Shown here one piece after another: positions 11,052-41,028 of a DNA stretch of 41,062 nt; positions within the stretch are counted from its first letter, which is position 1, and every line of letters starts with the position of its first letter. Below the pieces are notes generated by a model. That model was given only the letters and a program-made list of their open reading frames with translations. It had not been told where the DNA came from and did no database searches. Both the position numbers and the translations under genes were made by a program. Where the stretch lies: the NCBI GenBank assembly GCA_007132225.1, contig SLPB01000135.1, positions 1 through 41,062 on the forward strand, in the 5' to 3' direction. This DNA comes from Bacteroidales bacterium (GTDB taxonomy: Bacteria > Bacteroidota > Bacteroidia > Bacteroidales > PUMT01).

Positions 11052-11822
11052 TTATTTACAGGTATATCCTCCATCGATTAAAAGTTCGCTGCCGGTTAAG
11101 AATTTAGCCTCATCACTGGCCAGGTAAACAATCCCATAAGCAACGTCTTCAGGTTCCCCGACATGACCTATGGGATGAAGGGCATCAAGCTCCTTCCTGA
11201 ACTCCTCGATATTTTTTCCGCTTTCTTTGCCCATAGCTTCAACCAGCGGGGTCCAGATGAATCCCGGATGCACTGAATTTACCCTGATATTATCTTTTGC
11301 AAATATCAGTGCATCGTTCTTGGTCATTATTCTCACAGCACCTTTTGAAGCATGATATGCAGGAATATCGCCGGCACCAATAATCCCGTAAATAGATGAT
11401 AAATTAATAATATTTCCCTGACCGTTTTTACGCATATAGGGAACTATATGCTTGGTACACAAAAAAGCGCCATTCACATTAATATCCATAACCTTTTGCC
11501 AGTCTTTCAGATCTATCTCATCAGTAGGTTTATTTACACCGGATATACCAGCATTATTAACAAGGACATCAATTTTCCCGTATTCGGCATTTACTTCAGA
11601 AAACACCTTTTTCACTTCGCCTTCATCAGCAACATCAAGATGCCAGAACTTTGCCTTTCCCCCGTCTGATGTAATCTTTTCCGCAAGTTGCCTGCCCTCT
11701 TCGTCAAGAATATCGGTAATGGCAACCCTGGCACCTTCTTCCGCCATTTTCTGGCAGGCTGATTTTCCAATGCCAAGCGATCCCCCGGTTATTATTATTA
11801 CTTTGTCTTTCAATCTGTTCAT
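11052..11822 (-). CDS. Short-chain dehydrogenase/reductase (classical, FabG-like)
   Basis: 256 residues, the standard length. The nucleotide motif is TGGSLGIGKSACQ (about 13-25), followed by NNAG at about 89-92. The active site is Ser in INLSSIYG with Tyr-x3-Lys in YHASKGA. The end carries GEPEDVAYGIVYLASDEA and TGSELLIDGGYTC. An Asp at the end of the second strand (AITDILD) favours NAD over NADP. Annotations for this group include glucose 1-dehydrogenase and 3-alpha-hydroxysteroid or sugar-alcohol dehydrogenases; sequence alone does not decide. It converges with the PL8 gene with only 11 bases between stops. Confidence 0.92.
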   Translation of the reverse strand: MNRLKDKVIIITGGSLGIGKSACQKMAEEGARVAITDILDEEGRQLAEKITSDGGKAKFWHLDVADEGEVKKVFSEVNAEYGKIDVLVNNAGISGVNKPTDEIDLKDWQKVMDINVNGAFLCTKHIVPYMRKNGQGNIINLSSIYGIIGAGDIPAYHASKGAVRIMTKNDALIFAKDNIRVNSVHPGFIWTPLVEAMGKESGKNIEEFRKELDALHPIGHVGEPEDVAYGIVYLASDEAKFLTGSELLIDGGYTCK

Positions 11823-11880
11823 AATTTTTGATTTAGAATATTTATATTAAAATCAAGACTTTACATAAGCAACATGCGGA

Positions 11881-12216
11881 CTAAGCAGCTTTAGTTTGCT
11901 TTTGTGCTTCCCTGACAGCAAATCCGGACATTAACACAGTAAGTAGTCCAATGATCCAATGATTCCACATTTCAGAAATAGTGATCATTCCCAGCACCCA
12001 GGGTGAAAAAAATATCCAAATACCAATAATTATATTAATCCATTCTGACCATGCTTTCCGGTCGTATAGTGCAAAGGCTGAAAAGATTGTCACTAAAGCC
12101 CCGAAAAGGTAGGAATTCCAGGCATATCCCATATCACTGTATCCAAATATCCAGGGAGACAGTATCAACCAGATTCCAAGGATTAAAGTAACCCAATCCT
12201 GACTTCGCTTTCTCAT
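11881..12216 (-). CDS. SPW-repeat integral membrane protein
   Basis: 111 residues with four predicted membrane helices arranged as two similar halves. Each half has the SPW signature: LILGIWLILSPWIFGY and IIIGIWIFFSPWVLGM. Between them are WNSYLFGALVTIFSAFALYD and WNHWIIGLLTVLMSGFAV, which are themselves alike, so the protein is an internal duplication. The family is of unknown function and is common in Bacteroidota and Actinobacteria. The SDR gene lies 58 bases downstream on the same strand and may be read from the same message. Confidence 0.9.
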   Translation of the reverse strand: MRKRSQDWVTLILGIWLILSPWIFGYSDMGYAWNSYLFGALVTIFSAFALYDRKAWSEWINIIIGIWIFFSPWVLGMITISEMWNHWIIGLLTVLMSGFAVREAQKQTKAA

Positions 12217-22307: not shown

Positions 22308-22315
22308 TAACTTTG
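22308..22315 (+). promoter_or_regulatory. -7 promoter element of the TPP-riboswitch transcript
   Basis: TAACTTTG is an exact TAnnTTTG match whose start point (about 22322) falls right at the base of the riboswitch. A 14-base perfect palindrome, GCATTTGCAAATGC (22315-22328), overlaps the expected start site. No clear -33 TTG is at 20 bases. Confidence 0.5.
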
Positions 22316-22321
22316 CATTTG

Positions 22322-22405
22322 CAAATGCACGGGGTGCCAACTGTAAAGCTGGACTGAGATTATACCCGATACCTGATTTGGATAATGCCAACGTAGGGAT
22401 GCAGT
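22322..22405 (+). ncRNA. TPP (thiamin pyrophosphate) riboswitch
   Basis: The conserved THI-box core is nearly complete. GGGGTGCC is at 22331-22338 and CTGAGATTATACCC at 22354-22367. Then comes CTGATTTGGATAATGCCA at 22373-22390, followed by ACGTAGGGA. P1 can close with TGCA at 22326-22329 against TGCA at 22400-22403, and P3 with CCA/TGG around the variable loop. These are the pyrimidine- and pyrophosphate-sensing helices of the class. It governs the methyltransferase/AIRS-like/ThiE-like genes that start 88 bases later. A terminator hairpin follows, so TPP binding probably reduces transcription. Confidence 0.95.
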
Positions 22406-22413
22406 ATTAAAAT

Positions 22414-22470
22414 ATTCCATTTTGTACTTCATTCTTTTGGCACGCCAATTCGAATGGAGTTTTTTTATTT
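22414..22470 (+). terminator. Attenuator terminator after the TPP riboswitch
   Basis: ATTCCATT at 22414-22421 pairs with AATGGAGT at 22453-22460 (8 bp, one G-U). An inner hairpin TTGGC/GCCAA sits at 22437-22448. A T-rich tract (TTTTTTATTTTATT) follows directly. The 3' arm and T-tract overlap a possible ATG at 22454, which argues that translation really starts at 22493. An anti-terminator pairing with the riboswitch was not worked out. Confidence 0.6.
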
Positions 22471-22492
22471 TATTCAAATAACAGAATGGGAA

Positions 22493-23212
22493 ATGGAACT
22501 GGAAAAAAAATATTTTGAATTAACCCAAAGTCCGCGAAACTGGCAGGACAGGCCCGAATGGTTTTTTAACCGTGAGCATACCGACACCTACGAACAGTGG
22601 TATGAAGGGAGGTACAAACGAGCTGAAATATGGCAGAAAAAAGTAATGGAGCAGCTGGTATCAAAAGACAAACGTATAAAAACACTGCTTGAATTCGGCT
22701 GCGGAACAACCCGGTTTACAAGGTGGTGGAAGGAAATAGGGATTGAGGCAACCGGCGGGGACATCTCACCCCTGATGTTGTCACAGGCTATAGACCTGTT
22801 TGATGGAGACCTCGTGATGGCAGACTCGCACCATATGCCTTTTAAGGACCACACTTTTGATTCTTTGGCTTTTATAACCACATTCGAATACTACAAGGAC
22901 CCGGTAAAAGTTATACGGGAAGCGGCAAGGGTTGCCAGGTATGGGATTGCACTGGGTATGATGAACAGGAACTCTCCCAAAGTGGTAAGAAGGCGTGTCC
23001 AGCAGATGTTCGGAAAAAATCCGTTTTATATCACCGCCACTTTCTATACTCCGAAAAAATTAACAGAGATAATTAACCATGCTTTACAGGGCAGATCATA
23101 TTCGATTGAATGGTCGTGCACAGGACTGCCCGGCTGGTTCCCCATACAACAGTGGGGCTTGCCTTATGGTGATTTTTTTGGAATGTATGTGAAAATAAAT
23201 GATGTTGAGTGA
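22493..23212 (+). CDS. SAM-dependent class I methyltransferase in a TPP-regulated operon
   Basis: 239 residues from ATG at 22493. A start at 22454 would add 13 residues but lies within the terminator stem. Motif I is LLEFGCGTTRFTRWW, followed by the acidic strand end GGDISPLML, motif IV-like AFITTFEYYKDPVKVIREAA and a Methyltransf_11-type organisation. The N-terminal third is rich in Trp and charged residues (WQDRPEWFF, YEQWYEGRYKRAEIWQ) and may bind substrate. The class is clear and the substrate is not. It is the first gene after the TPP riboswitch, and its stop overlaps the next start (TGATG), implying linked expression with a thiamin-related function. A Trm112-like partner is encoded downstream. 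Confidence 0.88.
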   Translation: MELEKKYFELTQSPRNWQDRPEWFFNREHTDTYEQWYEGRYKRAEIWQKKVMEQLVSKDKRIKTLLEFGCGTTRFTRWWKEIGIEATGGDISPLMLSQAIDLFDGDLVMADSHHMPFKDHTFDSLAFITTFEYYKDPVKVIREAARVARYGIALGMMNRNSPKVVRRRVQQMFGKNPFYITATFYTPKKLTEIINHALQGRSYSIEWSCTGLPGWFPIQQWGLPYGDFFGMYVKINDVE

Positions 23213-24267
23213 TGGATGACAAGCTTGGAAAAATAGATCACCGGATATTTGAAGACCTTATCCAGGCAAAGTGCGGACACGAACGCAAGGAAGTTCTTAC
23301 CGGACCAAGGTTTGGCACGGATGTTTCCGTTATTGACCTTCAGGGTGGCATGGCTATGGCCGTCACCAGTGACCCGCTGTCACTTATTCCTTCACTGGGA
23401 CTGGAAGAGTCTGCGTGGCTATCTGTGCACCTTATAACCAACGATATGGCCACTACCGGCTTTGCTCCCATGTATGGGCAATTCATACTAAATCTGCCGG
23501 CCACATTCTCCAAAGAGGATTTCAAAACCTATTGGGATTACATACATAAATTTTGCACAAGACTGGGAGTTGCCATTACGGGGGGACATACAGGCTTTAT
23601 TGAAGGTCAGAATTCAACCATTGCCGGAGGCGGCACCTTTTTCACCATCGCACCCCGGGCGCAGATACTTACCTCCTCAAATGCAGAACCCGGAGATGTG
23701 ATCCTGGTAACCAAACAATGTGCGATATCATCTTCTTCTATTCTTGCCATGAGTTTCCCGAAAACGGTAAGGAATAAACTGGGAGAGGAAGCTTATCAGG
23801 AGGCATGCGGGATGTTTTACCAGACATCTTCACTGGATGATGCGTTAACGGCTGTTGGCAAACAAAACAGGTACAATGAAATTACCGCCATGCATGATGT
23901 TACCGAAGGTGGGGTGATGGGAGCCATCTATGAGATGGCTTGCGCTTCGGGCAACGGTGCTGTGGTTTACAATGATCAGGTACCTGTTGGCAGGATCCCG
24001 GATGCGGTCTGCAGGCTCTTCTCGATCGACCCCCGCTACTGCGTGGGTGCAGGCTCCATGATCATTACCTGCAAAAAAGATAAAGTCCCCCTTATCATAA
24101 ACCGGCTGAATGAAGCAGACATACCCTGTTGCCCGGTTGGTGAAGTAAAAGAAAAAGAAGCGGGTATTAAGGTTGCAGAAAACAACAAGGAGACTGATTT
24201 AATTTATCCTGAAGAAGATCCGTACTGGGCTGCATTCTTCAATGCCTGCAAAAAAGGATGGAAATAA
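23212..24267 (+). CDS. AIR-synthase/HypE/ThiL-like ATP-binding protein
   Basis: 351 residues; ATG at 23212 overlaps the previous stop by one base. N-domain: GTDVSVIDLQGGMAMAVTSD, then WLSVHLITNDMATTGFAPMYG, the ATP-site strand of the PurM/AIRS fold. C-domain: GDVILVTKQCAISSSSILAM, HDVTEGGVMGAIYEMA and CVGAGSMIITCKKDKV. Family members (PurM, HypE, ThiL, SelD) activate carbonyl or phosphate groups with ATP. It lacks the C-terminal Pro-Arg-x-Cys tail of HypE and the selenium loop of SelD. Given the TPP riboswitch and a ThiE-like neighbour, a kinase-like step on a thiamin precursor or thiamin phosphate (ThiL-type) is plausible but unproven. Confidence 0.85.
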   Translation: MDDKLGKIDHRIFEDLIQAKCGHERKEVLTGPRFGTDVSVIDLQGGMAMAVTSDPLSLIPSLGLEESAWLSVHLITNDMATTGFAPMYGQFILNLPATFSKEDFKTYWDYIHKFCTRLGVAITGGHTGFIEGQNSTIAGGGTFFTIAPRAQILTSSNAEPGDVILVTKQCAISSSSILAMSFPKTVRNKLGEEAYQEACGMFYQTSSLDDALTAVGKQNRYNEITAMHDVTEGGVMGAIYEMACASGNGAVVYNDQVPVGRIPDAVCRLFSIDPRYCVGAGSMIITCKKDKVPLIINRLNEADIPCCPVGEVKEKEAGIKVAENNKETDLIYPEEDPYWAAFFNACKKGWK

Positions 24268-24902
24268 TGGAAAAAAAGAGAAAAATAATTCCGGGAGTAT
24301 ATGTGGTTATAGATCCGTGGACGGATGAAAGTATTTTGTTGCATAATCTCAGTATCATCCTTAAGGAAAAAATTGCCGGCGTGCAGCTGTGGGACCACTT
24401 TTGCCCGGATTCAAATAATCTGAAGCTGGTCAGAAAAGTAACAAAGATGTGCCATGAAAACAATATCCCGGTACTTATTAACAATCACTGGGAATGGTTG
24501 CTTAAAACTGACCTGGATGGGGTACACTTTGACAATGCTCCCGGAAATTATGCCCGGATTAAAAAATCAATAAACAGGGAATTCATAAGCGGCCTTACGT
24601 GCAGCAATGATCTATCACTTGTAAAGTGGGCCGATGATAACCGCATGGATTATATTTCCTTCTGCTCAATTTTCCCTTCTTCAACCAGCAACAGTTGTGA
24701 GCTCGTGAAATTTGAAACCATCAGTCTAGCAAAAGAAATGACTTCAATGCCTGTCTTTTTATCGGGGGGAATCAGGCCTGAAAACATGCATAAATTAAAC
24801 AACCTGCAATATGATGGGGTGGCTGTGGTATCAGGTATTATGCAATCACGGGCTCCGGACGAATCGGTAAAGGCATATATAAACCAGCTGAACCGCATAT
24901 GA
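24267..24902 (+). CDS. ThiE/TenI-like TIM-barrel protein with altered active site
   Basis: 211 residues; the start overlaps the previous stop (TAATG). The overall pattern is ThiE: VYVVIDP, AGVQLWDH, VLINNHWEWLLKTDLDGVHFDN, ISGLTCSND, YISFCSIFPSSTSNS, and MPVFLSGGIRPENMHKL followed by DGVAVVSGI. But the substrate residues differ. The QxRxK pyrophosphate clamp is Q40-L-W-D-H44, the metal Asp of the IND motif is Asn73, the HxGQ/SxH positions are changed, and the P-T-x-T-K loop is FPSSTS. Only the phosphate-binding GG (167-168) is intact. It is thus probably not an ordinary thiamin phosphate synthase; a tautomerase (TenI) or new activity is more likely. Operon and riboswitch tie it to thiamin metabolism. 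Confidence 0.82.
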   Translation: MEKKRKIIPGVYVVIDPWTDESILLHNLSIILKEKIAGVQLWDHFCPDSNNLKLVRKVTKMCHENNIPVLINNHWEWLLKTDLDGVHFDNAPGNYARIKKSINREFISGLTCSNDLSLVKWADDNRMDYISFCSIFPSSTSNSCELVKFETISLAKEMTSMPVFLSGGIRPENMHKLNNLQYDGVAVVSGIMQSRAPDESVKAYINQLNRI

Positions 24903-25017: not shown

Positions 25018-25308
25018 ATGAGATCAGAAACCATAAAAAAATTATGTTGCCCCTTTGATAAAAAAGATTTGGAATTAACCATAATTACCCAGGACCTGGA
25101 AGAGAATATCCTGCAGGGAATTTTAACCTGTGCTGAGTGCAGACGCATCTACCCTATCGTTCAGGGAATTCCCATCATGAGTCCGGATGAATACAGGGAA
25201 TTAAAGCTTGAGCTTCCTTTGCTTGATAAATGGAAAAATCATCTTGAAGGTAAAAACATTGAAAATTTTCGTCTTACTGCCCAAACCGGGACATTAAAGG
25301 AGAAATAA
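25018..25308 (+). CDS. Trm112-like zinc-binding small protein
   Basis: 96 residues of the Trm112/YcaR (UPF0434) type: KKLCCPFDKKDLEL, then LTCAECRRIYPIVQGIPIM (Cys38, Cys41) and YPIxxGIPIM, the hallmark. The first pair is Cys10-Cys11-Pro with Asp14 replacing the usual second Cys, a variant seen in bacterial members. Trm112 proteins are activators of SAM methyltransferases in eukaryotes and archaea, and bacterial ones are often fused to or beside a methyltransferase. Here the first gene of the operon is a methyltransferase, so the two may form a complex. It is separated from the ThiE-like gene by 115 bases and a hairpin, so it may also have its own promoter. Confidence 0.82.
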   Translation: MRSETIKKLCCPFDKKDLELTIITQDLEENILQGILTCAECRRIYPIVQGIPIMSPDEYRELKLELPLLDKWKNHLEGKNIENFRLTAQTGTLKEK

Positions 25309-32082: not shown

Positions 32083-35000
32083 TTGCAGAAAGAAGTAAAA
32101 AATAAAATATTGGTCCTGGATGGTGCAATGGGCACCATGCTTCAACAAAAAGGTCTGGATGAGGATGATTTCAGGGGCAGCCGCTTTAAGAAAAACAGGG
32201 TTCCCCTGAAAGGACTAAACGATATTCTGGTTCTGACACAACCGGAGATTGTTGAGCAAATCCACGAAAAATACCTGGCTGCCGGAGCTGATATAATAAC
32301 TACTAATACTTTTAATGCCAATTACTTCGGATTAAAAGATTATGGACTGGAGCCATATGTATATGAGATAAATTACAGGGCAGCTAAACTGGCCCTGGAT
32401 AAGGCGTCCAAATACAATAAGAGGGATCCGGACAAACCCAGGTTTGTCGCAGGAACAATTGGCCCAACCGGTAAAACTGCATCCCTCTCCCCCGACATTA
32501 ACAGTCCCGCTCAACGTGATGTTACCTTTGATGAGCTTGCAGAAGCTTATGGCAATCAGGCGCAGGCTTTGATTAATGCCGGTGTGGACGTATTGCTGTT
32601 AGAAACTGTTTTTGACACTCTGAACGCCAGGGCTGCCCTGTATGCAATAAATGAAATACGCTTCCGGCTACCTGGTGATATCCCTGTAATGGTTTCAGTT
32701 ACAATCGATGAAAGCGGCCGTAATTTATCAGGCCAGACAGTGGAGGCATTTTACAATTCCCTGTCTCCATTCTTTTTGTTTTCAATTGGTTTGAATTGTT
32801 CGTTTGGAGCGGACAAGATGATCCCATATCTTGAAAGGCTTTCAGTTAAAGCGGGATTACCTGTCAGTGCTCACCCCAATGCAGGGTTACCCAATTCATC
32901 GGGCAATTATGATCAGTCCCCGGAGAAAATGGCCGGGCTGATCGAAACATTTTGTAAAAAGGGTTACGTAAACATAGTGGGAGGTTGCTGCGGAAGTACC
33001 CCGGAACACATCTCAAGCATTGCAGAAATGGCTGCTAAATATCCACCCCGCCCAATTGCAAAGCATTCCCCCGCTACAAGGTTCAGTGGTTTGCAGTCCT
33101 TTGGTGTCAAAAGCAGCACCAGGCTGATAAAAATAGGAGAAAAATCAAATGTAACCGGCTCAAGAAAATTTGCAAGGCTCATCAGAGATAAAAAATATGA
33201 AGAAGCCCTGGAAATTGCAAGAGATCAGATTCGGGCAGGCGGTGACATGCTGAATATAAGCCTTGATGAAAGCATGATAGATGCAAAAGGGGTCATCAGC
33301 GTTTTCCTTAACCACCTCCAGTCAGAACCCGACATTGCCAATGTGCCGGTAATGCTTGACTCTTCGGATATCGAAGTGATCACTAACGGACTGAAATGTT
33401 TGCAGGGACGCACCGGTGTGAACTCGATCAGCCTCAAGGACGGCACAGAGGCATTTAAACAAAAGGCAAAGATAATCAGGAAGCTTGGCGCCATTGCTGT
33501 TGTCATGGCCATAGACGAAAAAGGCCAGGCAGAAACTTTTTCCAGGAAAACTGAGATTTGCAGGTATGCTTATCATATTTCAACCAAAGAACTGGATTTC
33601 CCCCCCGAAGATATAATTCTTGATCCAAATGTATTACCCATTGGCACAGGTTTTAAAGAACATAATGATTATGCTGTCAACTTCATTAAAACAATCTCAT
33701 GGATTAAAAAGCATCTTCCATATGCAAAAGTAATTGCCGGTGTAAGCAATGTCTCTTTTGCATTCCGGGGCAATCATTACCTGAGAGATGTAATAAACTC
33801 AGTTTTTCTTCATCATTGTGAAAAAGCAGGGCTTGATTTTGCCATAATTAATACAGAGACAATTATTGATTATGATAATGTTCCCAAAGAATTACTCAGG
33901 CCTGTTGAGGATTTGATATTAAACAGGCGTAAGGATGCAACCGACCGGTTAATTAATATTGCAAGCCAGTTTGAAATTGAAAACATCCAAAAGGAACATA
34001 TAGAAAAATGGAGGCTCCAGTCCGCCGAAGGCAGAATTGCCTATGCAATATGCACGGGTATAAGTAAATTCATATACAAAGATATTCAGGAACTCAAAAG
34101 TACCGGCTATAAGGCTTTGGATATTATTCAGGGCCCTTTGATGATAGGAATGAACAGGGCCGGAGAACTGTTCAGTGCCGGCAAGATGTTTCTTCCCCAG
34201 GTAATCAAAAGTGCGCGGGTCATGAACATGTCTGTAAACCTTTTACAGGACGATATTGAAAAAGAAAATTTGACATCCCTGAAACCACCAGCCATAAGGA
34301 AGAAGATATTACTTGCTACCGTAGAGGGGGATGTTCATGATATTGGTAAAAACATCGTGGCAATGGCACTAAGATGCAACAATTATGAAGTTGTCGACCT
34401 GGGTGTAATGGTCCATGTTCATGAAATAATGGGTGCTGTCAACCGGGAAAAACCGGATATGATAGGTCTGAGCGGATTGATTTCTCCATCCCTGGAGAAA
34501 ATGACCGGAATATTAAAAAGGCTGGAATCGGAAAAATACAGCCTGCCTGTCTTAATGGGCGGGGCTGCCACCTCCGCCTTGCATACCGCAGTTAAAGCTG
34601 CACCGCTATATAACGGACTTGTGGTTCACGCACAGGATGCAATACAATGCGTGAATATTGCAAATAATATTTTGGGCTCCGGGGATGTGGCTGCAAAAGA
34701 AAAAATTCGAAAAACTCAAAAAGAACTTCAGCAAAAATTTAAGCAGAAAAAATCAGCCACGAGGTTCCTTTCCCTGGATGAAGCCAGGAAAAGAAGACTT
34801 TCATATAAAAAAGAAACTTATACAAAGCCCAGGCTGCTCGGAATAACTGAATTTAATGATTTTGACCTGGGTAAACTCAAATATTACATCAACTGGGATC
34901 CTTTCTTTCATGGATGGGGGCTAAAAGGGAAATATCCATCCATTTTTGAAAAAGAGCGTGTTGGAAGCGAAGCGGAAAGGTTATTCACCGAAGCGCATAC

Positions 35001-35742
35001 AATGCTCCATGATATTGAGCAACACAAAATGATACGTCCCAGGGGAATAATCGGGATTTTCCCGGCTAACTCCCAGGGAGATGATGTGTGGATATTTAAA
35101 AATGACAGCCGGAAGGAAGTGATAATGAAAATACCCATGCTAAGGCAGCAGTATATAAGGGATGATACCGGTTATACACTATCTTTGGCTGATTTTATAG
35201 CACCTGTTGAATCCGGCGAAAAGGATTACATAGGTGGTTTTGCAGCAACAACGGGCCTGGGCATAGGTAAGCATCTTAACCGGTTAAAAGAAAAGGGTGA
35301 CAGCTACAATAGTATTATGTTTCGCCTGATAGCTGACCGGCTCGTTGAGGCTTCCGCAGAAATAATGCATGAATGGGTCAGGACAAAATATTGGGGGTAT
35401 GACCCGGGTGAAGATATGAACATTGCAGAGAAGTTAAAAGGGAAGTATGCGGGGATCAGACCTGCTATTGGCTATCCGGCAATACCTGATCATCGCACCA
35501 AAAAATATTTGTTTGAGCTTTTAAACGTTGAAGAAAGAATAGGTGTCTCTCTCACAGATATTTACGCCATGAAGCCAGCTAGCTCAGTATCAGGGTTTTA
35601 CCTGGCAAGCAATGCATCAAGATATTTCGGTGTAGGAAAAATCGGCCAGGATCAGCTTATTGATTATGCAAGACGAACAGGACAGAATGTGGAAATAACA
35701 GAAAAATGGTTATGTTCTGCAGTTGCTGAAAAGCAACCCTGA
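32083..35742 (+). CDS. metH: Cobalamin-dependent methionine synthase, full length
   Basis: 1219 residues, full four-module length. The homocysteine domain (about 1-320) has the zinc cysteines C239 (LNCSFGAD) and C302-C303 (GGCCGSTPEH). The methyl-THF pterin domain (about 350-620) includes NVTGSRKF and NISLDESMID. The cobalamin domain (about 645-880) carries the Asp750-x-His752-xx-Gly755 motif, with His752 the lower ligand of cobalt. The SAM-binding reactivation domain (about 900-1219) has RPAIGYPAIPDH. It transfers methyl from CH3-THF to homocysteine. The start is TTG at 32083, since no in-frame ATG exists before the first conserved block. The metF gene follows 44 bases later. Corrinoid methyltransferase genes follow further on. 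Confidence 0.97.
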   Translation: MQKEVKNKILVLDGAMGTMLQQKGLDEDDFRGSRFKKNRVPLKGLNDILVLTQPEIVEQIHEKYLAAGADIITTNTFNANYFGLKDYGLEPYVYEINYRAAKLALDKASKYNKRDPDKPRFVAGTIGPTGKTASLSPDINSPAQRDVTFDELAEAYGNQAQALINAGVDVLLLETVFDTLNARAALYAINEIRFRLPGDIPVMVSVTIDESGRNLSGQTVEAFYNSLSPFFLFSIGLNCSFGADKMIPYLERLSVKAGLPVSAHPNAGLPNSSGNYDQSPEKMAGLIETFCKKGYVNIVGGCCGSTPEHISSIAEMAAKYPPRPIAKHSPATRFSGLQSFGVKSSTRLIKIGEKSNVTGSRKFARLIRDKKYEEALEIARDQIRAGGDMLNISLDESMIDAKGVISVFLNHLQSEPDIANVPVMLDSSDIEVITNGLKCLQGRTGVNSISLKDGTEAFKQKAKIIRKLGAIAVVMAIDEKGQAETFSRKTEICRYAYHISTKELDFPPEDIILDPNVLPIGTGFKEHNDYAVNFIKTISWIKKHLPYAKVIAGVSNVSFAFRGNHYLRDVINSVFLHHCEKAGLDFAIINTETIIDYDNVPKELLRPVEDLILNRRKDATDRLINIASQFEIENIQKEHIEKWRLQSAEGRIAYAICTGISKFIYKDIQELKSTGYKALDIIQGPLMIGMNRAGELFSAGKMFLPQVIKSARVMNMSVNLLQDDIEKENLTSLKPPAIRKKILLATVEGDVHDIGKNIVAMALRCNNYEVVDLGVMVHVHEIMGAVNREKPDMIGLSGLISPSLEKMTGILKRLESEKYSLPVLMGGAATSALHTAVKAAPLYNGLVVHAQDAIQCVNIANNILGSGDVAAKEKIRKTQKELQQKFKQKKSATRFLSLDEARKRRLSYKKETYTKPRLLGITEFNDFDLGKLKYYINWDPFFHGWGLKGKYPSIFEKERVGSEAERLFTEAHTMLHDIEQHKMIRPRGIIGIFPANSQGDDVWIFKNDSRKEVIMKIPMLRQQYIRDDTGYTLSLADFIAPVESGEKDYIGGFAATTGLGIGKHLNRLKEKGDSYNSIMFRLIADRLVEASAEIMHEWVRTKYWGYDPGEDMNIAEKLKGKYAGIRPAIGYPAIPDHRTKKYLFELLNVEERIGVSLTDIYAMKPASSVSGFYLASNASRYFGVGKIGQDQLIDYARRTGQNVEITEKWLCSAVAEKQP

Positions 35743-35786
35743 CAGCCCCCTAAAAAATATATAATTTATCAAATAACTTAGTATAT

Positions 35787-36710
35787 ATGAAAATTACAGA
35801 CATTTTTAAAAAACAAAAAAGAACATTCTCATTCGAGTTTTTTCCTCCCAAAGATTACCAGACGGCAATAAAATTTGGTATCAATGCCGGACAGTTGATG
35901 AAACTCACCCCTTCATTTGTATCAGTAACCTACGGTGCAAGCGGATCAACCCAAACCAACACTTTCGAGCTCGTGGATCTGTTTCACAACGAACTGGGAT
36001 TTACCTGTATGGCTCATTACACATGCGTTAATGCAACCAGGGAGAAAATAGCCTATGATATGAGGGTTCTTCAGGATATGGGAATTGAAAATGTGATGCT
36101 TATAAGAGGAGACAGCCCCAAGGGCGAACCTCTGTTAAAACCAAATCCATGCGGATTTAATTATGGCAGTGACCTTGTGAAATTTGTCAGGGAACGTTAT
36201 GATTTTTGTATAGGAGCGGGTGCGTACCCGGAAAAACACATTGAATCTTCTTCCCTTGATAAAGACATTACAAATCTCAAGATCAAAGTGGATGCCGGCG
36301 CTGATTTTTTAATTACTCAAATGTTTTTTGACAATAAATATTACTGGGACTTTTTGAACAAAGCTGAACAGCAAGGAATAAAATGCAGGATTATTCCGGG
36401 CATTATACCAATAACAAACTTTAAACAAATAAAAAAATTCAGTGAATTAACCGGCACCCGCATACCAAAAAAATTAATGACGAAATTAGAACCCTATCAG
36501 GATAACCCTAAAGAAGCTGCAAAAATTGGCATTGATCATGCGCTGATACAGGTTTCTGATTTGCTCAATAACGGTGCGCTTGGTATTCATTTTTACACCC
36601 TGAATAAATCCACGGCTGCAATAAAACTATATGAGTCGCTATCACAGGATTTTAAAGATGTGAAAATGCTGTTTGAAAAAAGCCTGACACCACACATTGC
36701 AAAACCATGA
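35787..36710 (+). CDS. metF: 5,10-methylenetetrahydrofolate reductase
   Basis: 307 residues, normal for bacterial MetF, an FAD-dependent TIM barrel that makes CH3-THF for MetH or runs in reverse. Signatures: FSFEFFPPKDYQTA at the start with the catalytic Glu; FVSVTYGASG; ENVMLIRGDSP; GADFLITQMFFDNKYYWDF; CRIIPGIIPITN; and LGIHFYTLNKS at the end. No long C-terminal extension, so it is the bacterial form. It starts 44 bases after metH, with no terminator seen between them, so they are probably co-expressed. In the context of the downstream corrinoid system it could also take methyl-THF in the oxidative direction. Confidence 0.97.
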   Translation: MKITDIFKKQKRTFSFEFFPPKDYQTAIKFGINAGQLMKLTPSFVSVTYGASGSTQTNTFELVDLFHNELGFTCMAHYTCVNATREKIAYDMRVLQDMGIENVMLIRGDSPKGEPLLKPNPCGFNYGSDLVKFVRERYDFCIGAGAYPEKHIESSSLDKDITNLKIKVDAGADFLITQMFFDNKYYWDFLNKAEQQGIKCRIIPGIIPITNFKQIKKFSELTGTRIPKKLMTKLEPYQDNPKEAAKIGIDHALIQVSDLLNNGALGIHFYTLNKSTAAIKLYESLSQDFKDVKMLFEKSLTPHIAKP

Positions 36711-37181
36711 TCATTTTCAGTTCTTTATTCAATACAGGACTTAAGCAAAGATGTATCTTCCAGCCTGAATATTCGGGGACGGGTATTTGCGGTTTTGGAT
36801 ATTAGTGCCAAAAAAGCTTTTATATATAAACATTAAAAGGTATATTTGCCTACCTGATAAACAATTGTGTGGCATAATTGCTCACATACAGTAGGATACT
36901 GGAATGCAGCAGGTTTTTAATTTCAGAGTCTGATCCTGTAATAATATTTCTCTTTCAAAGAGAGATCAATTGTTTTATAAATCGCACAATTATAGCTGCG
37001 AACAACCAGTACCTGTCTCCCGCACATCATTTCAGTGCAGATAGCAATTTTGTCAAATGCCAGAATATTTGGTAAATGTCAAGGTCACACAGACCGGATC
37101 AAAACTATATAGATGGAAATTAAATTATACTGAATTAATTAATTTATAATTATTATATTTATATAAAAAAACAATTATACT
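36711..37181 (+). other. 471-base leader region ahead of the corrinoid gene
   Basis: No convincing protein gene. TATATTTG at 36841-36848 is an exact -7 match, so a transcript could start near 36855 and give a leader of about 325 bases. Within it are a tight hairpin TCTCTTTCAAAGAGA (about 36951-36965) and a TGTG...CACA pairing near 36868-36885. The length invites a regulatory RNA, but I recognise no known class. The stretch just before the gene is very AT-rich. Confidence 0.35.
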
Positions 37182-37820
37182 ATGGATTTAAGTAATATCT
37201 CAGAAACCCTTATTGCGGGAAAAGCTGATGAATTGAGAAAAATGGTTGAAGAAGGTGTAAAAGAAAATATTAACCCTGCCGACATACTAAATCAGGGCCT
37301 GCTACCAGGAATGGATGCTGTAGGGAAAAAGTGGAAAGCCGGCGATATGTTTATGCCTGAAGTGCTGCGCAGTGCCAAAGCAATGAGCATTTCAATGGAT
37401 TTCTTAAGGCCGTTGCTTAAAGATGATGACGTGGGAAATGCCGGAACCATGATCATTGGAACAGTTGCAGGCGATTTGCATGATATTGGTAAAGACCTTG
37501 CCGCCATGATGTTTGAAGGTGCAGGTTATAATGTAATTAACATTGGTATTGATCAGTCAAATGAAAATTTTGTTGATGCGGTAAAAGAACATAAATGTAA
37601 TTTGCTGGGGATGTCAGCTTTGCTTACAACAACAATGCCCAGAATGGGCGAAGTGATAAATTCCCTGAAAGAAGCGGGTATACGTGACCAGGTAACAGTA
37701 ATAATTGGTGGCGCACCTGTAACAGAAGAATTTGCCAGGGAAATAGGTGCCGATCTTTATGCTCCCAACGCCGGAAGTGCTGTTGATATTACAAGGGAGT
37801 ACCTTCAGAATAAAAATTAA
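37182..37820 (+). CDS. MtbC/MttC-type corrinoid protein
   Basis: 212 residues: a helical cap (about 1-85) with NPADILNQGLLPGMDAVGKKW and GDMFMPEVLRSAKAMS, then a cobalamin-binding Rossmann domain with GTVAGDLHDIGKDLAAMM, whose Asp98-x-His100-xx-Gly103 supplies the lower cobalt ligand. These proteins carry methyl on Co(III) between a substrate-specific methyltransferase and an acceptor enzyme. It is the same module as that in MetH but free standing. Downstream are two MttB-family genes, its likely methyl donors. The specific partner type (dimethylamine, trimethylamine, betaine) cannot be set from the corrinoid protein alone. Confidence 0.95.
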   Translation: MDLSNISETLIAGKADELRKMVEEGVKENINPADILNQGLLPGMDAVGKKWKAGDMFMPEVLRSAKAMSISMDFLRPLLKDDDVGNAGTMIIGTVAGDLHDIGKDLAAMMFEGAGYNVINIGIDQSNENFVDAVKEHKCNLLGMSALLTTTMPRMGEVINSLKEAGIRDQVTVIIGGAPVTEEFAREIGADLYAPNAGSAVDITREYLQNKN

Positions 37821-37964
37821 TGGCACTGTAAGCCCCTATATGGTCTGTTTACCAGTGGCATTATCCACACATTTAAGTCCCCGGCTAACAGCCTGTGTAA
37901 CCCGGTATTAAAACAGGCCTATACATCAATGTTAATCAGGTAACTGATGTTGAACTGCCATTGT
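37817..37964 (+). other. Paired inverted repeats between the corrinoid and MttB genes
   Basis: TAATGGCACTG at the end of the corrinoid gene can pair with CAGTGGCATTA near 37854-37864 (10 of 11). A second pairing, TTAATCAGG (about 37932) with CCTGATTAA (about 37977), lies further along. Together they suggest an RNA processing or partial-termination structure within the 220-base gap before the first mttB gene. There is no good promoter in the gap, so read-through from the corrinoid gene is likely. Confidence 0.35.
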
Positions 37965-38040
37965 TGGCGGGGTCAGCCTGATTAATTGATAGTCCGCTAT
38001 CCATCGGGCCAGCTAATAAAATTAAATTAAATATTTACTG

Positions 38041-39489
38041 ATGAAAATGAATCAGACAATTAACAAATCCACAAAGTTCCGCGTCCTTTCAGATGACCAG
38101 ATTGAACAAATTTTCTATGCTGCCCTGGAGGTGCTGGAAAGAACAGGTGGAATGATTTACCATGAGGAGGCCCTCGAGCTTTTCCGCGACAGTCACGCTG
38201 TCGTAAAGGGTAATCACGTGCGCGTTCCCCCTTATATGATTGAGGAAGCTTTAAATTTTTATCCCAGGAAAATAACCCTCAGAGGCAGAAATAATGTACG
38301 TTCCCTGCATATACAAAAAGATACTGTAACTTTCGGCACGGGGTCAGATTTGCCTTTCACTCATGACAGGAAAACCGGGGAAAGACGAAGAACAACCTAC
38401 CAGGATGTAACTAATGCAGCAAAATTGGTGGATGCTTTATCACACTACGATTTTTTTATGTCCCACGGAATTGTAGGCGATGCACCGAACCCCCAGACAT
38501 ATGACAGGCATCAGTTCATGGCGATGCTGGAAGGCTGCACAAAGCCCATGGTCCTGACAAGTGTTGATGGCGAGGGACTGGAGGATCTGTGGAAAATGGG
38601 ATGCCTGGTGCAGGGAGGTGAAGAAGAATTCAGACTAAACCCTCTTTTCGTTGCATATATTGAACCTATTTCCCCCCTGAAAAACGATAAAACCGCAGTT
38701 GAAAAATTATTGTTCGCTGCCAAAAAAAAGCTGCCGGCCATGTATACCCCGTGTCCAAGTTCGGGAGCTACCGCACCGGCAACCATTGCAGGGATGCTGG
38801 TTCAGTCCCTGGCTGAAACACTGATGGCTGTTGTGTTGTGTCACCTTAAAAGTCCGGGAACACCACTTATAATGGGAGGAGTAACTACCTTGCTTGATAT
38901 GAAATACTCAACTTATTCATATGGCGCCCCTGAGTTGTCCCTGGCATCTGCTGCCAATACAGATATCTCAAAATGGCTGAACCTTCTGATGTTCTCCACA
39001 GGCGGGTGCACTGATTCCAAAATCCTGGATGAGCAGGCTGCCGCCGAACAGATGATGAACCTTTTTTATTCATACCTCTCTGGTGCAAACCTGATACACG
39101 ATGTTGGTTATATGGATCACGGGACAAATGCATCGCTGGAAAGCCTGGTGATGAATGAAGAAATGATGGGTATGGTCAAAGCTTTCGGAAAAGGCATTAA
39201 TACTGACGATGACCATCTTGCCCTGGAGCTGATTGAAAAAATCGGACCCGCCGGAGAGTATGTAACATCCGGGCACACCTTTGATCACTGGAAAGAATGG
39301 TTTATGCCCAAACTCCAGGACAGGAGTGATTATGAAACATGGAAACAGAACGGTTCCAAAACGATGCTTGACAGGGTAAAAGAAAGAACACAACATCTTC
39401 TTGATACTTACGAACCGGAACCCCTGGATGAAAAGCTTAAAAAGGAGCTTAAAGAAATTGCAAGTGCGGCTGATGCGCGACATTCGTAA
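38041..39489 (+). CDS. MttB-family corrinoid methyltransferase (no pyrrolysine), copy 1
   Basis: 482 residues of the trimethylamine methyltransferase superfamily: a TIM barrel with GTGSDLPFTHDRKTGERRRT near the start, PTPNPQT-like DAPNPQTYDRHQF, AYIEPISPLKND, SYGAPELSLASAA and FSTGGCTDSKILDEQAAAEQ, then GANLIHDVGYMDHG. The frame is open throughout with no in-frame TAG, so unlike the methanogen enzyme it has no pyrrolysine. Non-pyrrolysine members demethylate glycine betaine, proline betaine, carnitine or similar quaternary amines and pass methyl to a corrinoid protein. The cognate corrinoid protein is encoded 220 bases upstream. The substrate is unknown. Confidence 0.93.
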   Translation: MKMNQTINKSTKFRVLSDDQIEQIFYAALEVLERTGGMIYHEEALELFRDSHAVVKGNHVRVPPYMIEEALNFYPRKITLRGRNNVRSLHIQKDTVTFGTGSDLPFTHDRKTGERRRTTYQDVTNAAKLVDALSHYDFFMSHGIVGDAPNPQTYDRHQFMAMLEGCTKPMVLTSVDGEGLEDLWKMGCLVQGGEEEFRLNPLFVAYIEPISPLKNDKTAVEKLLFAAKKKLPAMYTPCPSSGATAPATIAGMLVQSLAETLMAVVLCHLKSPGTPLIMGGVTTLLDMKYSTYSYGAPELSLASAANTDISKWLNLLMFSTGGCTDSKILDEQAAAEQMMNLFYSYLSGANLIHDVGYMDHGTNASLESLVMNEEMMGMVKAFGKGINTDDDHLALELIEKIGPAGEYVTSGHTFDHWKEWFMPKLQDRSDYETWKQNGSKTMLDRVKERTQHLLDTYEPEPLDEKLKKELKEIASAADARHS

Positions 39490-39555
39490 CCATAAAATAT
39501 TTTTTTCAGGCAAAAAACTCAGAGATACTAAACAATAATGTTTTAAATTATCATA

Positions 39556-41028
39556 ATGATTACAAGAACTAATTACACAATACAGCAAAGCCCGCATTTT
39601 GAAATTCTTTCTGAAAATCAAAAAGAACGGATCTATAACGGCATGATGCGCACCTTACAGTATACAGGGGCAAATGTACATCATGAGAAAGCAAGGGAAC
39701 TATTCAAAAAAGCCGGATGTAAAATAGACGGGATACGGGTTTATTTTCCACCGGAAGTGATTTTAAATGCCTTATCCACCGTACCTGTTATCACCGAAGT
39801 TTTCCCATGGGACGGTGATGATTCTAAGAAAATCATTATTGAGAAAAAAAGGAGTTATTTCGGACCGGGACCCACGCCCCCAAACTTCATTGATACAGAA
39901 ACCCTTGAACGCAGGAAATACCTGAGAAAAGACGCAACGACAGTTGCCCGGGTCTGTGATGCGCTGCCCAATATAGGCTATGTGCAATCTCTGGGATCTA
40001 TCAGTGATGTCACCAACGGACTGGCTGATGTTTATGAATTTGCCGATATGATACGAAACACTACAACTCCCATAATGAGCTGGTCATTCACAAAAGAGGG
40101 CTGCCGCGATATTCACCGGATGGGTATTGCAATGGCAGGAAGTGAAGAAGAATTCAAGCAAAGGCCAAACTACATTTTTTACGGGGAACCAATCTCCCCT
40201 CTGGTAAGTGATTTTAATGCCATTGACAAATGTATGTATTGCGCGGAGAACAGGATACCCCAGGTATACAGTCCCTGTGCCATAGGTGGCGGTACCGTAC
40301 CGGCCTCGCATGCAGGCCAGCTGGTCGTGGCTCTTTCAGAATCGATGGTGGGCGTGATTGCCTCTCAACTGATAAATCCCGGGACCTGCATTATCATTGG
40401 CGGCGTCCAGTCAATACTGGATATGCGTTATTCCGTTTACTCATACGGAGCCCCGGAACTCAGCCTGCTAAGTGCAGCAATGACCGAGATGGTTCACTAT
40501 TGCAACTTGCCGATGTATTCAACCTCAGGATGTACAGACACAAAGAAGATGGATATGCAATCAGCCATGGAGGCATGTCTATCCATCAATGCTGCCATGA
40601 TGAGCGGGGCAAATTTCGTGCATGATAACGGGTATACAGAATCGGGTCTGACCGGCGATATTTTTCAGACGGTTATGGATGATGAACTGATCAGCATGGC
40701 ACGTGTCATTGAAAGAGGTGTAGAGGTAAACGAAGAAACACTTGCCGTTGATCAGATACACAATGTCGGGCCGGGCGGCCACTATCTCTATGAAGAACAT
40801 ACCATGAAGCATTTCAGAAATCACTGGATGCCCACGCTAATGGACAGGAACAGTTATGAAAGCTGGGAGGAACAAGGTAAAAAAACCATGAAAGACAGGA
40901 TAATTGAAAAAACAAGAGAACTGATTGAAACCCATGAAGGACCAATAAACAAAGTTTCCGCAAAAGCCAGCAAGGAGATAGAGAAAATACTTGAGCAGGC
41001 AGAAGAAAGGCAACAAAAGGGAAGTTAA
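39556..41028 (+). CDS. MttB-family corrinoid methyltransferase (no pyrrolysine), copy 2
   Basis: 490 residues, a tandem paralogue of the gene before it; both share the ILDMxYSxYSYGAPELSL and SxGCTDxK blocks and a GANxxHDxGY segment, but overall similarity is moderate, so they may differ in substrate or work as a pair. Early blocks are YFGPGPTPPNFIDTETLERR and ATTVARVCDALPNIGYVQS; later ones are YGEPISPLVSDF and YSTSGCTDTKKMDMQSAMEA. No in-frame TAG interrupts it. It starts 66 bases after copy 1 on the same strand. After its stop only 34 bases remain in the window, so the operon may continue (for example with a methyl-THF acceptor or corrinoid activase). Confidence 0.93.
   Translation: MITRTNYTIQQSPHFEILSENQKERIYNGMMRTLQYTGANVHHEKARELFKKAGCKIDGIRVYFPPEVILNALSTVPVITEVFPWDGDDSKKIIIEKKRSYFGPGPTPPNFIDTETLERRKYLRKDATTVARVCDALPNIGYVQSLGSISDVTNGLADVYEFADMIRNTTTPIMSWSFTKEGCRDIHRMGIAMAGSEEEFKQRPNYIFYGEPISPLVSDFNAIDKCMYCAENRIPQVYSPCAIGGGTVPASHAGQLVVALSESMVGVIASQLINPGTCIIIGGVQSILDMRYSVYSYGAPELSLLSAAMTEMVHYCNLPMYSTSGCTDTKKMDMQSAMEACLSINAAMMSGANFVHDNGYTESGLTGDIFQTVMDDELISMARVIERGVEVNEETLAVDQIHNVGPGGHYLYEEHTMKHFRNHWMPTLMDRNSYESWEEQGKKTMKDRIIEKTRELIETHEGPINKVSAKASKEIEKILEQAEERQQKGS

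Follow-up and report, generated by a model that had tools for sequence, protein, structure and literature searches.

The window, a 41,062-nucleotide stretch of DNA from a Bacteroidales bacterium (contig SLPB01000135.1 of assembly GCA_007132225.1), contains four genes preceded by a thiamin pyrophosphate (TPP) riboswitch. The cassette is conserved and widespread, and is undescribed as far as literature searches reach; no description of it was found in full-text searches, whose coverage largely excludes subscription papers and preprints. With moderate confidence, we read it as a self-contained unit, repressed by TPP and probably passed between lineages, that would feed thiamin monophosphate (TMP) to ThiL by a route without ThiC and ThiG. 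Its features are as follows:

22308–22315, forward strand: Bacteroidota -7-like promoter element TAACTTTG, a motif match to TAnnTTTG, which we take to be the -7 consensus of this phylum.
22320–22416, forward strand: TPP riboswitch aptamer (RF00059; cmscan 60.6 bits against a gathering cut-off of 54.3, E 1.3e-9, model positions 1–105, the full length).
About 22426–22466, forward strand: hairpin and T-tract before the start codon, probably the expression platform's intrinsic terminator (scripted fold).
22493–23212, forward strand: class I S-adenosylmethionine (SAM)-dependent methyltransferase, likely Trm112-dependent (Pfam Methyltransf_11, 1.6e-16).
23212–24267, forward strand: AIR-synthase-superfamily (PurM/HypE/ThiL/SelD-like) protein, hereafter AIRS-like, probably an ATP-dependent enzyme (Pfam AIRS 2e-10, AIRS_C 7e-17).
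24267–24902, forward strand: ThiE/TenI-like TIM barrel (Pfam TMP-TENI, 2e-32, 112.5 bits).
25018–25308, forward strand: Trm112-like zinc ribbon, the probable methyltransferase partner (Pfam Trm112p, 5.6e-8).

The riboswitch of the window is real and of the ordinary TPP type. The original prediction, made from the sequence without database searches, had described a nearly complete THI-box, and the Rfam model agreed over its full length and above its cut-off. With an independent covariance model, derived from seven aptamers outside the loci tested, a TPP aptamer was found in 81 of 81 further loci, 34–147 bases upstream of the methyltransferase match. This rules out a chance riboswitch, and supplies the recurrence beside TPP riboswitches that the prediction had named as its test. 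Rfam's own model placed the cassette aptamer above cut-off in 33 of 34 carrier genomes, with only 47.8 bits in the remaining one (G069). As for the dedicated promoter and terminator, the -7-like element and the hairpin with its T-tract are present, but generic scans were unsupportive, the sigma-70 scan giving fewer promoter-like sites than its shuffles and the terminator scan leaving the window hairpin unflagged. The folding energy of the window leader was not clearly better than that of shuffles (z -0.98). Of 82 loci, 50 had TAnnTTTG between -60 and +12 relative to the start of the aptamer, against 3.9 expected from mononucleotide shuffles, and a comparable leader hairpin was present in 20 of 31 (30 hand-picked loci and the window) by a crude rule applied without a shuffle control. 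At one locus (L088), a second TPP-like aptamer (11817–11912, reverse strand, 41.2 bits with model R1) lies just past the cassette on the opposite strand, with no suitably placed minus-strand gene among the listed open reading frames of at least 50 residues.

The methyltransferase, AIRS-like and ThiE-like genes of the window are joined by one-base overlaps (TGATG and TAATG). The longest open reading frame of the methyltransferase begins at 22454, but the conserved start is 22493, where its relatives begin. The Trm112-like gene begins 115 bases past the ThiE-like gene, a gap that is at most 20 bases in 71 of 78 loci. The original prediction of a three-gene operon had the genes, their order and their overlaps right but overlooked this fourth gene, whose presence in 78 of 78 uncut loci rules out an operon of three.

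Scanning genomes with the methyltransferase alignment gave 204 loci, and the results cover the best 80, all of which belong to Bacteroidota by their record titles. The four genes occur in the same order and on the same strand in 78 of these 80, the other two being interrupted by contig ends. In a phylum sample of 198 genomes, seven, including that of the window, had the AIRS-like protein (E 1e-20 or better); in the other six the full set of four genes is present in an unchanged order, five of these genomes having an aptamer above the Rfam cut-off. The AIRS-like tree, built by a quick method and with 28 of 83 inner branches weak, mixed orders, grouping Algoriphagus alkaliphilus with Arenibacter and Ferruginibacter with Pedobacter and placing two Rufibacter copies apart. 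No flanking gene cluster was found in more than 11 of the 80 loci, in a comparison that did not run the neighbours against family libraries. Within Arenibacter, the genus of Arenibacter aquaticus (G204, locus L034), the cassette methyltransferase was found in eight of 18 genomes, ThiC in two, neither in eight and both in none. The mixed orders, the variable flanks and the patchiness within one genus fit a portable unit that was probably passed between lineages, with loss and paralogy as alternatives. Two Arenibacter genomes carry two cassette copies each (L042/L050 and L039/L052), and a response-regulator-like gene, recognised by eye, follows each of the four copies.

Thiamin genes were compared between 34 carriers and 20 non-carriers of the window's class. 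The carriers include 27 named genomes hand-picked for spread from the best loci, and the controls are unmatched genomes from the phylum-sample listing, restricted to one class and not randomly drawn. ThiC was found in 3 of 34 carriers vs 8 of 20 non-carriers (Fisher p 0.012, no kinship correction). Full-length ThiG (>300 bits) was found in the same three and the same eight genomes, so that 31 carriers lack both; weaker partial ThiG matches (at most 32 bits each, with one place at 34.3 together with its neighbours) were treated as other barrels, several of them exceeding the Pfam cut-off of 23. ThiL was above cut-off in all 54 genomes. A TPK match (PF04263) was present in nine carriers and seven non-carriers, and in none of the 12 ThiC-free controls. 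The cassette barrel was the sole TMP-TENI match above cut-off in 29 carriers, a further one occurring in G204, G214, G216, G222 and G223. The window's genome had no ThiC, ThiG or TPK match at the thresholds used, and thus lacks the ThiC and ThiG taken as the criterion of canonical biosynthesis; it has one ThiL above cut-off (G000:C131), and no TMP-TENI protein other than the divergent barrel exceeds the cut-off there. The statement that none of the usual thiamin genes is present is therefore true at the locus and, for ThiC, ThiG and TPK at these thresholds, across the genome, with a canonical ThiL elsewhere. In Niabella ginsengisoli, ThiL seems to be divided between two frames (G210:C4, 516817–517802).

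Outside the cassette, 40 TPP-riboswitch loci of ThiC-free genomes, a subset of those found, were inspected. The next gene was TonB-receptor-sized or PnuT-like, by eye, in 37, and Pfam confirmed eleven TonB receptors and one PnuT-type protein among them. Ten of these receptors, one from the window's genome and nine from non-carriers, all had a TonB plug domain, and eight also had the barrel. What stands under TPP control in ThiC-free non-carriers is mostly import genes, to which carriers add the cassette. The predominance of import genes at the other riboswitch loci suggests that the cassette takes the place that a biosynthesis operon has in Bacteroides.

Among the four proteins, the methyltransferase is the most constrained, with a mean pairwise identity of 80.9% over 77 common rows against 58.0% for the AIRS-like protein, 45.9% for the ThiE-like barrel and 57.5% for the Trm112-like protein, although selection of the rows by methyltransferase likeness inflates the first figure. 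Its structural model is moderate (predicted local distance difference test, pLDDT, 71.4), which makes the fold ranking a lead only. Foldseek ranked the Haloferax Trm112-Hvo_0019 complex fourth and sixth, with pre-40S chains also among the matches, and BUD23 was among the sequence-profile matches to solved structures. The Hvo_0019 and BUD23 matches fit with a Trm112 partner encoded alongside, and the methyltransferase is likely Trm112-dependent. The Trm112-like protein passes the Pfam gathering cut-off for PF03966 (33.0 vs 22 bits) and falls below that of NCBIfam Trm112_arch (61.3 vs 77 bits); from its co-occurrence in every uncut locus, it is the probable partner.

The barrel aligns over nearly its full length with Bacillus subtilis ThiE, and was rejected as ThiE itself (TIGR00693, 96.2 bits against an equivalog cut-off of 145.1). 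Through a profile alignment, its columns were matched to R59, K61, D112 and K159 of the B. subtilis enzyme, which we take to be ligands of hydroxymethylpyrimidine pyrophosphate (HMP-PP) or pyrophosphate. Over 85 rows, the R59 column is always W (W45), the K61 column is N in 57, H in 27 and C in 1, the D112 column is P in 76 and never D, and the K159 column is A in 50, S in 22, V in 9, T in 2, D in 1 and N in 1, and never K. The GGI phosphate loop and the S-G phosphate site are retained, and C136 and C147 (numbered from a start at 24258) are invariant.

Loss of the presumed HMP-PP site would also be expected if the cassette made a non-thiamin compound or modification that spares or replaces a TPP-dependent step, and were for that reason expressed at low TPP. 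Such a role would suit a methyltransferase-Trm112 pair, since pairs of this type can modify macromolecules, as the Bud23 and pre-40S structure matches recall. However, two of the four proteins come from thiamin-enzyme superfamilies, and the scarcity of ThiC and ThiG in carriers is a further argument for a thiamin role, so that we consider this explanation unlikely.

The model of the AIRS-like protein is good (pLDDT 91.9), and its closest folds are HypE, ThiL and SelD, with query-normalised TM scores of about 0.60–0.74 over the best 50 matches. All 86 rows keep D38, D55, N78-D79, GGHT and H229-D230, the ND and HD positions aligning with HypE, and the invariance of these Asp and His residues makes an active ATP enzyme likely. 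Assignment to a known family was rejected in each case: as ThiL (TIGR01379), it scored 61.7 bits against 184.15, with a separate canonical ThiL in the genome; as HypE (TIGR02124), 67.2 against 251.6, with no conserved Cys of the HypE C-terminal type within the last seven alignment columns; and as SelD (TIGR00476), 52.7 against 125.

An alternative kinase was among the original suggestions, and in its explicit form the AIRS-like protein would take over from TPK by phosphorylating thiamin or TMP, so that imported thiamin could be activated. Its fold is close to TMP-bound ThiL, the PF04263 match is missing in 25 of 34 carriers, and the other riboswitch of the window's genome controls a TonB importer. 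The kinase suggestion taken alone is nevertheless weakened, because nine carriers have TPK and all 34 have ThiL. A TPK match is likewise missing from the 12 ThiC-free non-carriers, and absence of TPK therefore does not require the cassette. With a ThiL score far under the cut-off and no account of the methyltransferase or the barrel, replacement of TPK is quite unlikely.

The methyltransferase under a TPP riboswitch could also point to a modified thiamin as the product, either a pyrimidine or thiazole analogue or an antivitamin, in the style of the bacimethrin cluster, which shares the logic of a TPP riboswitch with a methyltransferase but has a different enzyme set. No thiaminase or thymidylate-synthase-like gene is among the four, the cassette is found mainly in genomes without ThiC and ThiG, and the strong constraint on the methyltransferase argues against it as well, making this product highly unlikely. 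Plain precursor salvage, in which the barrel would still join HMP-PP and thiazole phosphate to TMP with the other genes accessory, could draw on the retained GGI and S-G phosphate site and on the lack, in 29 of the 34 carriers, of any other TMP-TENI protein that exceeds the cut-off, but is very improbable, as the four ThiE columns lack R, K, D and K in all 85 rows and the cassette has no gene of a pyrimidine or thiazole kinase family (ThiD, ThiM and TenA were not searched genome-wide).

We therefore return to the TPP-repressed cassette that would supply TMP to ThiL. At low TPP, the aptamer would permit RNA polymerase to transcribe through the terminator, and the four genes would be expressed. 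The Trm112-like protein would activate the methyltransferase, and the two together may add or shift a methyl group. The AIRS-like enzyme might phosphorylate an amide- or formamide-type oxygen with ATP, in the manner of PurM, to activate the substrate or to close a ring, while the barrel might bind the substrate or product by its phosphorylated thiazole end. A natural candidate substrate would be N-formyl-4-amino-5-aminomethyl-2-methylpyrimidine (FAMP), a formamide breakdown product of thiamin that was measured in coastal water (PMC10881298). We infer that the product is TMP or a precursor leading to it, and consider it slightly more likely that the cassette converts a thiamin vitamer or breakdown product taken from the environment than that it carries out a full de novo synthesis. 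A bolder possibility, which we hold only tentatively, is an undescribed ThiC/ThiG-independent biosynthesis of TMP by a ring-closing AIRS-type enzyme, a Trm112-activated methyltransferase and a Cys-bearing barrel, in which case many Bacteroidota 'auxotrophs' would not be auxotrophs. We file the cassette under TPP-controlled thiamin acquisition, with a real chance that it is a new pathway. The original prediction of a non-textbook thiamin-linked pathway is supported in part: most carriers are without ThiC, full-length ThiG and canonical ThiE yet have ThiL, and the pathway may be salvage, alternative synthesis, a kinase or a modified precursor.

Several points weigh against supply of TMP by the cassette. 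We know of no precedent for a SAM methyltransferase in thiamin assembly. Three carriers also hold the full ThiC/ThiG set, and ThiC and the cassette are both missing from 12 of the 20 controls and from 8 of the 18 Arenibacter genomes. Since the 12 ThiC-free controls keep ThiL, ThiL alone is no proof that the cassette makes TMP. The ThiC contrast ignores kinship and uses non-random controls, and the 27 named carriers come without completeness figures. Three of the 40 inspected riboswitch loci (L217, L219 and L229) have no fitting gene nearby. The substrate and product of the cassette, and any effect on growth, are putative. Lastly, Arenibacter strain E3M18, which may or may not carry the cassette, was measured as a thiamin auxotroph (PMC12448291).

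A common ground for scoring an organism as a thiamin auxotroph is the absence of thiC, thiG or thiE, as PMC11346370, PMC12448291 and PMC12688033 illustrate. With a TPP-controlled cassette found mostly in genomes without these genes, such calls may be wrong, or an unrecognised vitamer may be used, in a widespread phylum. As a small and portable set of genes, the cassette lends itself to direct testing, and it is present in named type strains, such as Arenibacter palladensis DSM 17539, Algoriphagus locisalis DSM 23445 and Pontibacter flavimaris.

Other TPP-regulated units and the rest of the window yielded further observations. In L223, L225, L227 and L236, the riboswitch is followed by a PnuT-type transporter and then by an acyl-CoA-dehydrogenase/HsaA-like flavoprotein, assigned by Pfam and NCBIfam on the L227 copy only (the latter below cut-off) and by eye in the others. 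A DUF6687 protein adjoins the TonB receptor in L221 (3668–5455, Pfam) and L226 (1246–2313, by eye). The L221 unit also encodes an 'MSSHH' protein, which had no Pfam, NCBIfam or solved-structure match at the thresholds used. Another divergent ThiE-like protein stands beside an 'MSSHH' protein in Pedobacter chinensis and a relative (L237, 7253–8545; L210, 3555–4886); both copies match TMP-TENI, that of L237 falling below the NCBIfam ThiE cut-offs. Within the window, a one-carbon cluster lies at 32083–41028. Its MetH scores over cut-off and its MetF-like gene was recognised by eye, while an MtgC-like corrinoid protein and a pair of MttB-superfamily methyltransferases all fall below their cut-offs. 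Rfam gave a PYLIS_3 match at 39007–39106; as the MttB-superfamily genes have no in-frame stop, it most likely reflects mttB sequence likeness, not pyrrolysine.

Compared with known systems, the cassette resembles the Bacteroidetes TPP regulon in having a TPP riboswitch before thiamin acquisition genes. In PMC5613172, the Bacteroides regulon consists of thiSEGCHF-tenI, OMthi and pnuT-tnr3, with the TonB receptor and the PnuT-type transporter in separate riboswitch units, as was also observed here; unlike the regulon described there, the cassette holds no canonical biosynthesis gene, and the words 'methyltransferase' and 'hypothetical' are absent from the main text of that source. The AIRS-like protein shares its fold with HypE, ThiL, SelD and PurM, but it reaches none of the equivalog cut-offs of the families that it matches. 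Like the Trm112-activated methyltransferases Bud23 and Hvo_0019, the cassette methyltransferase has a Trm112 complex among its close folds and a Trm112-like gene beside it; to our knowledge, a TPP-controlled role has not been described for enzymes of that type. The barrel belongs to the same family as ThiE and TenI (PF02581), and differs from them in its replaced pyrophosphate ligands and in the invariant W45, C136 and C147.

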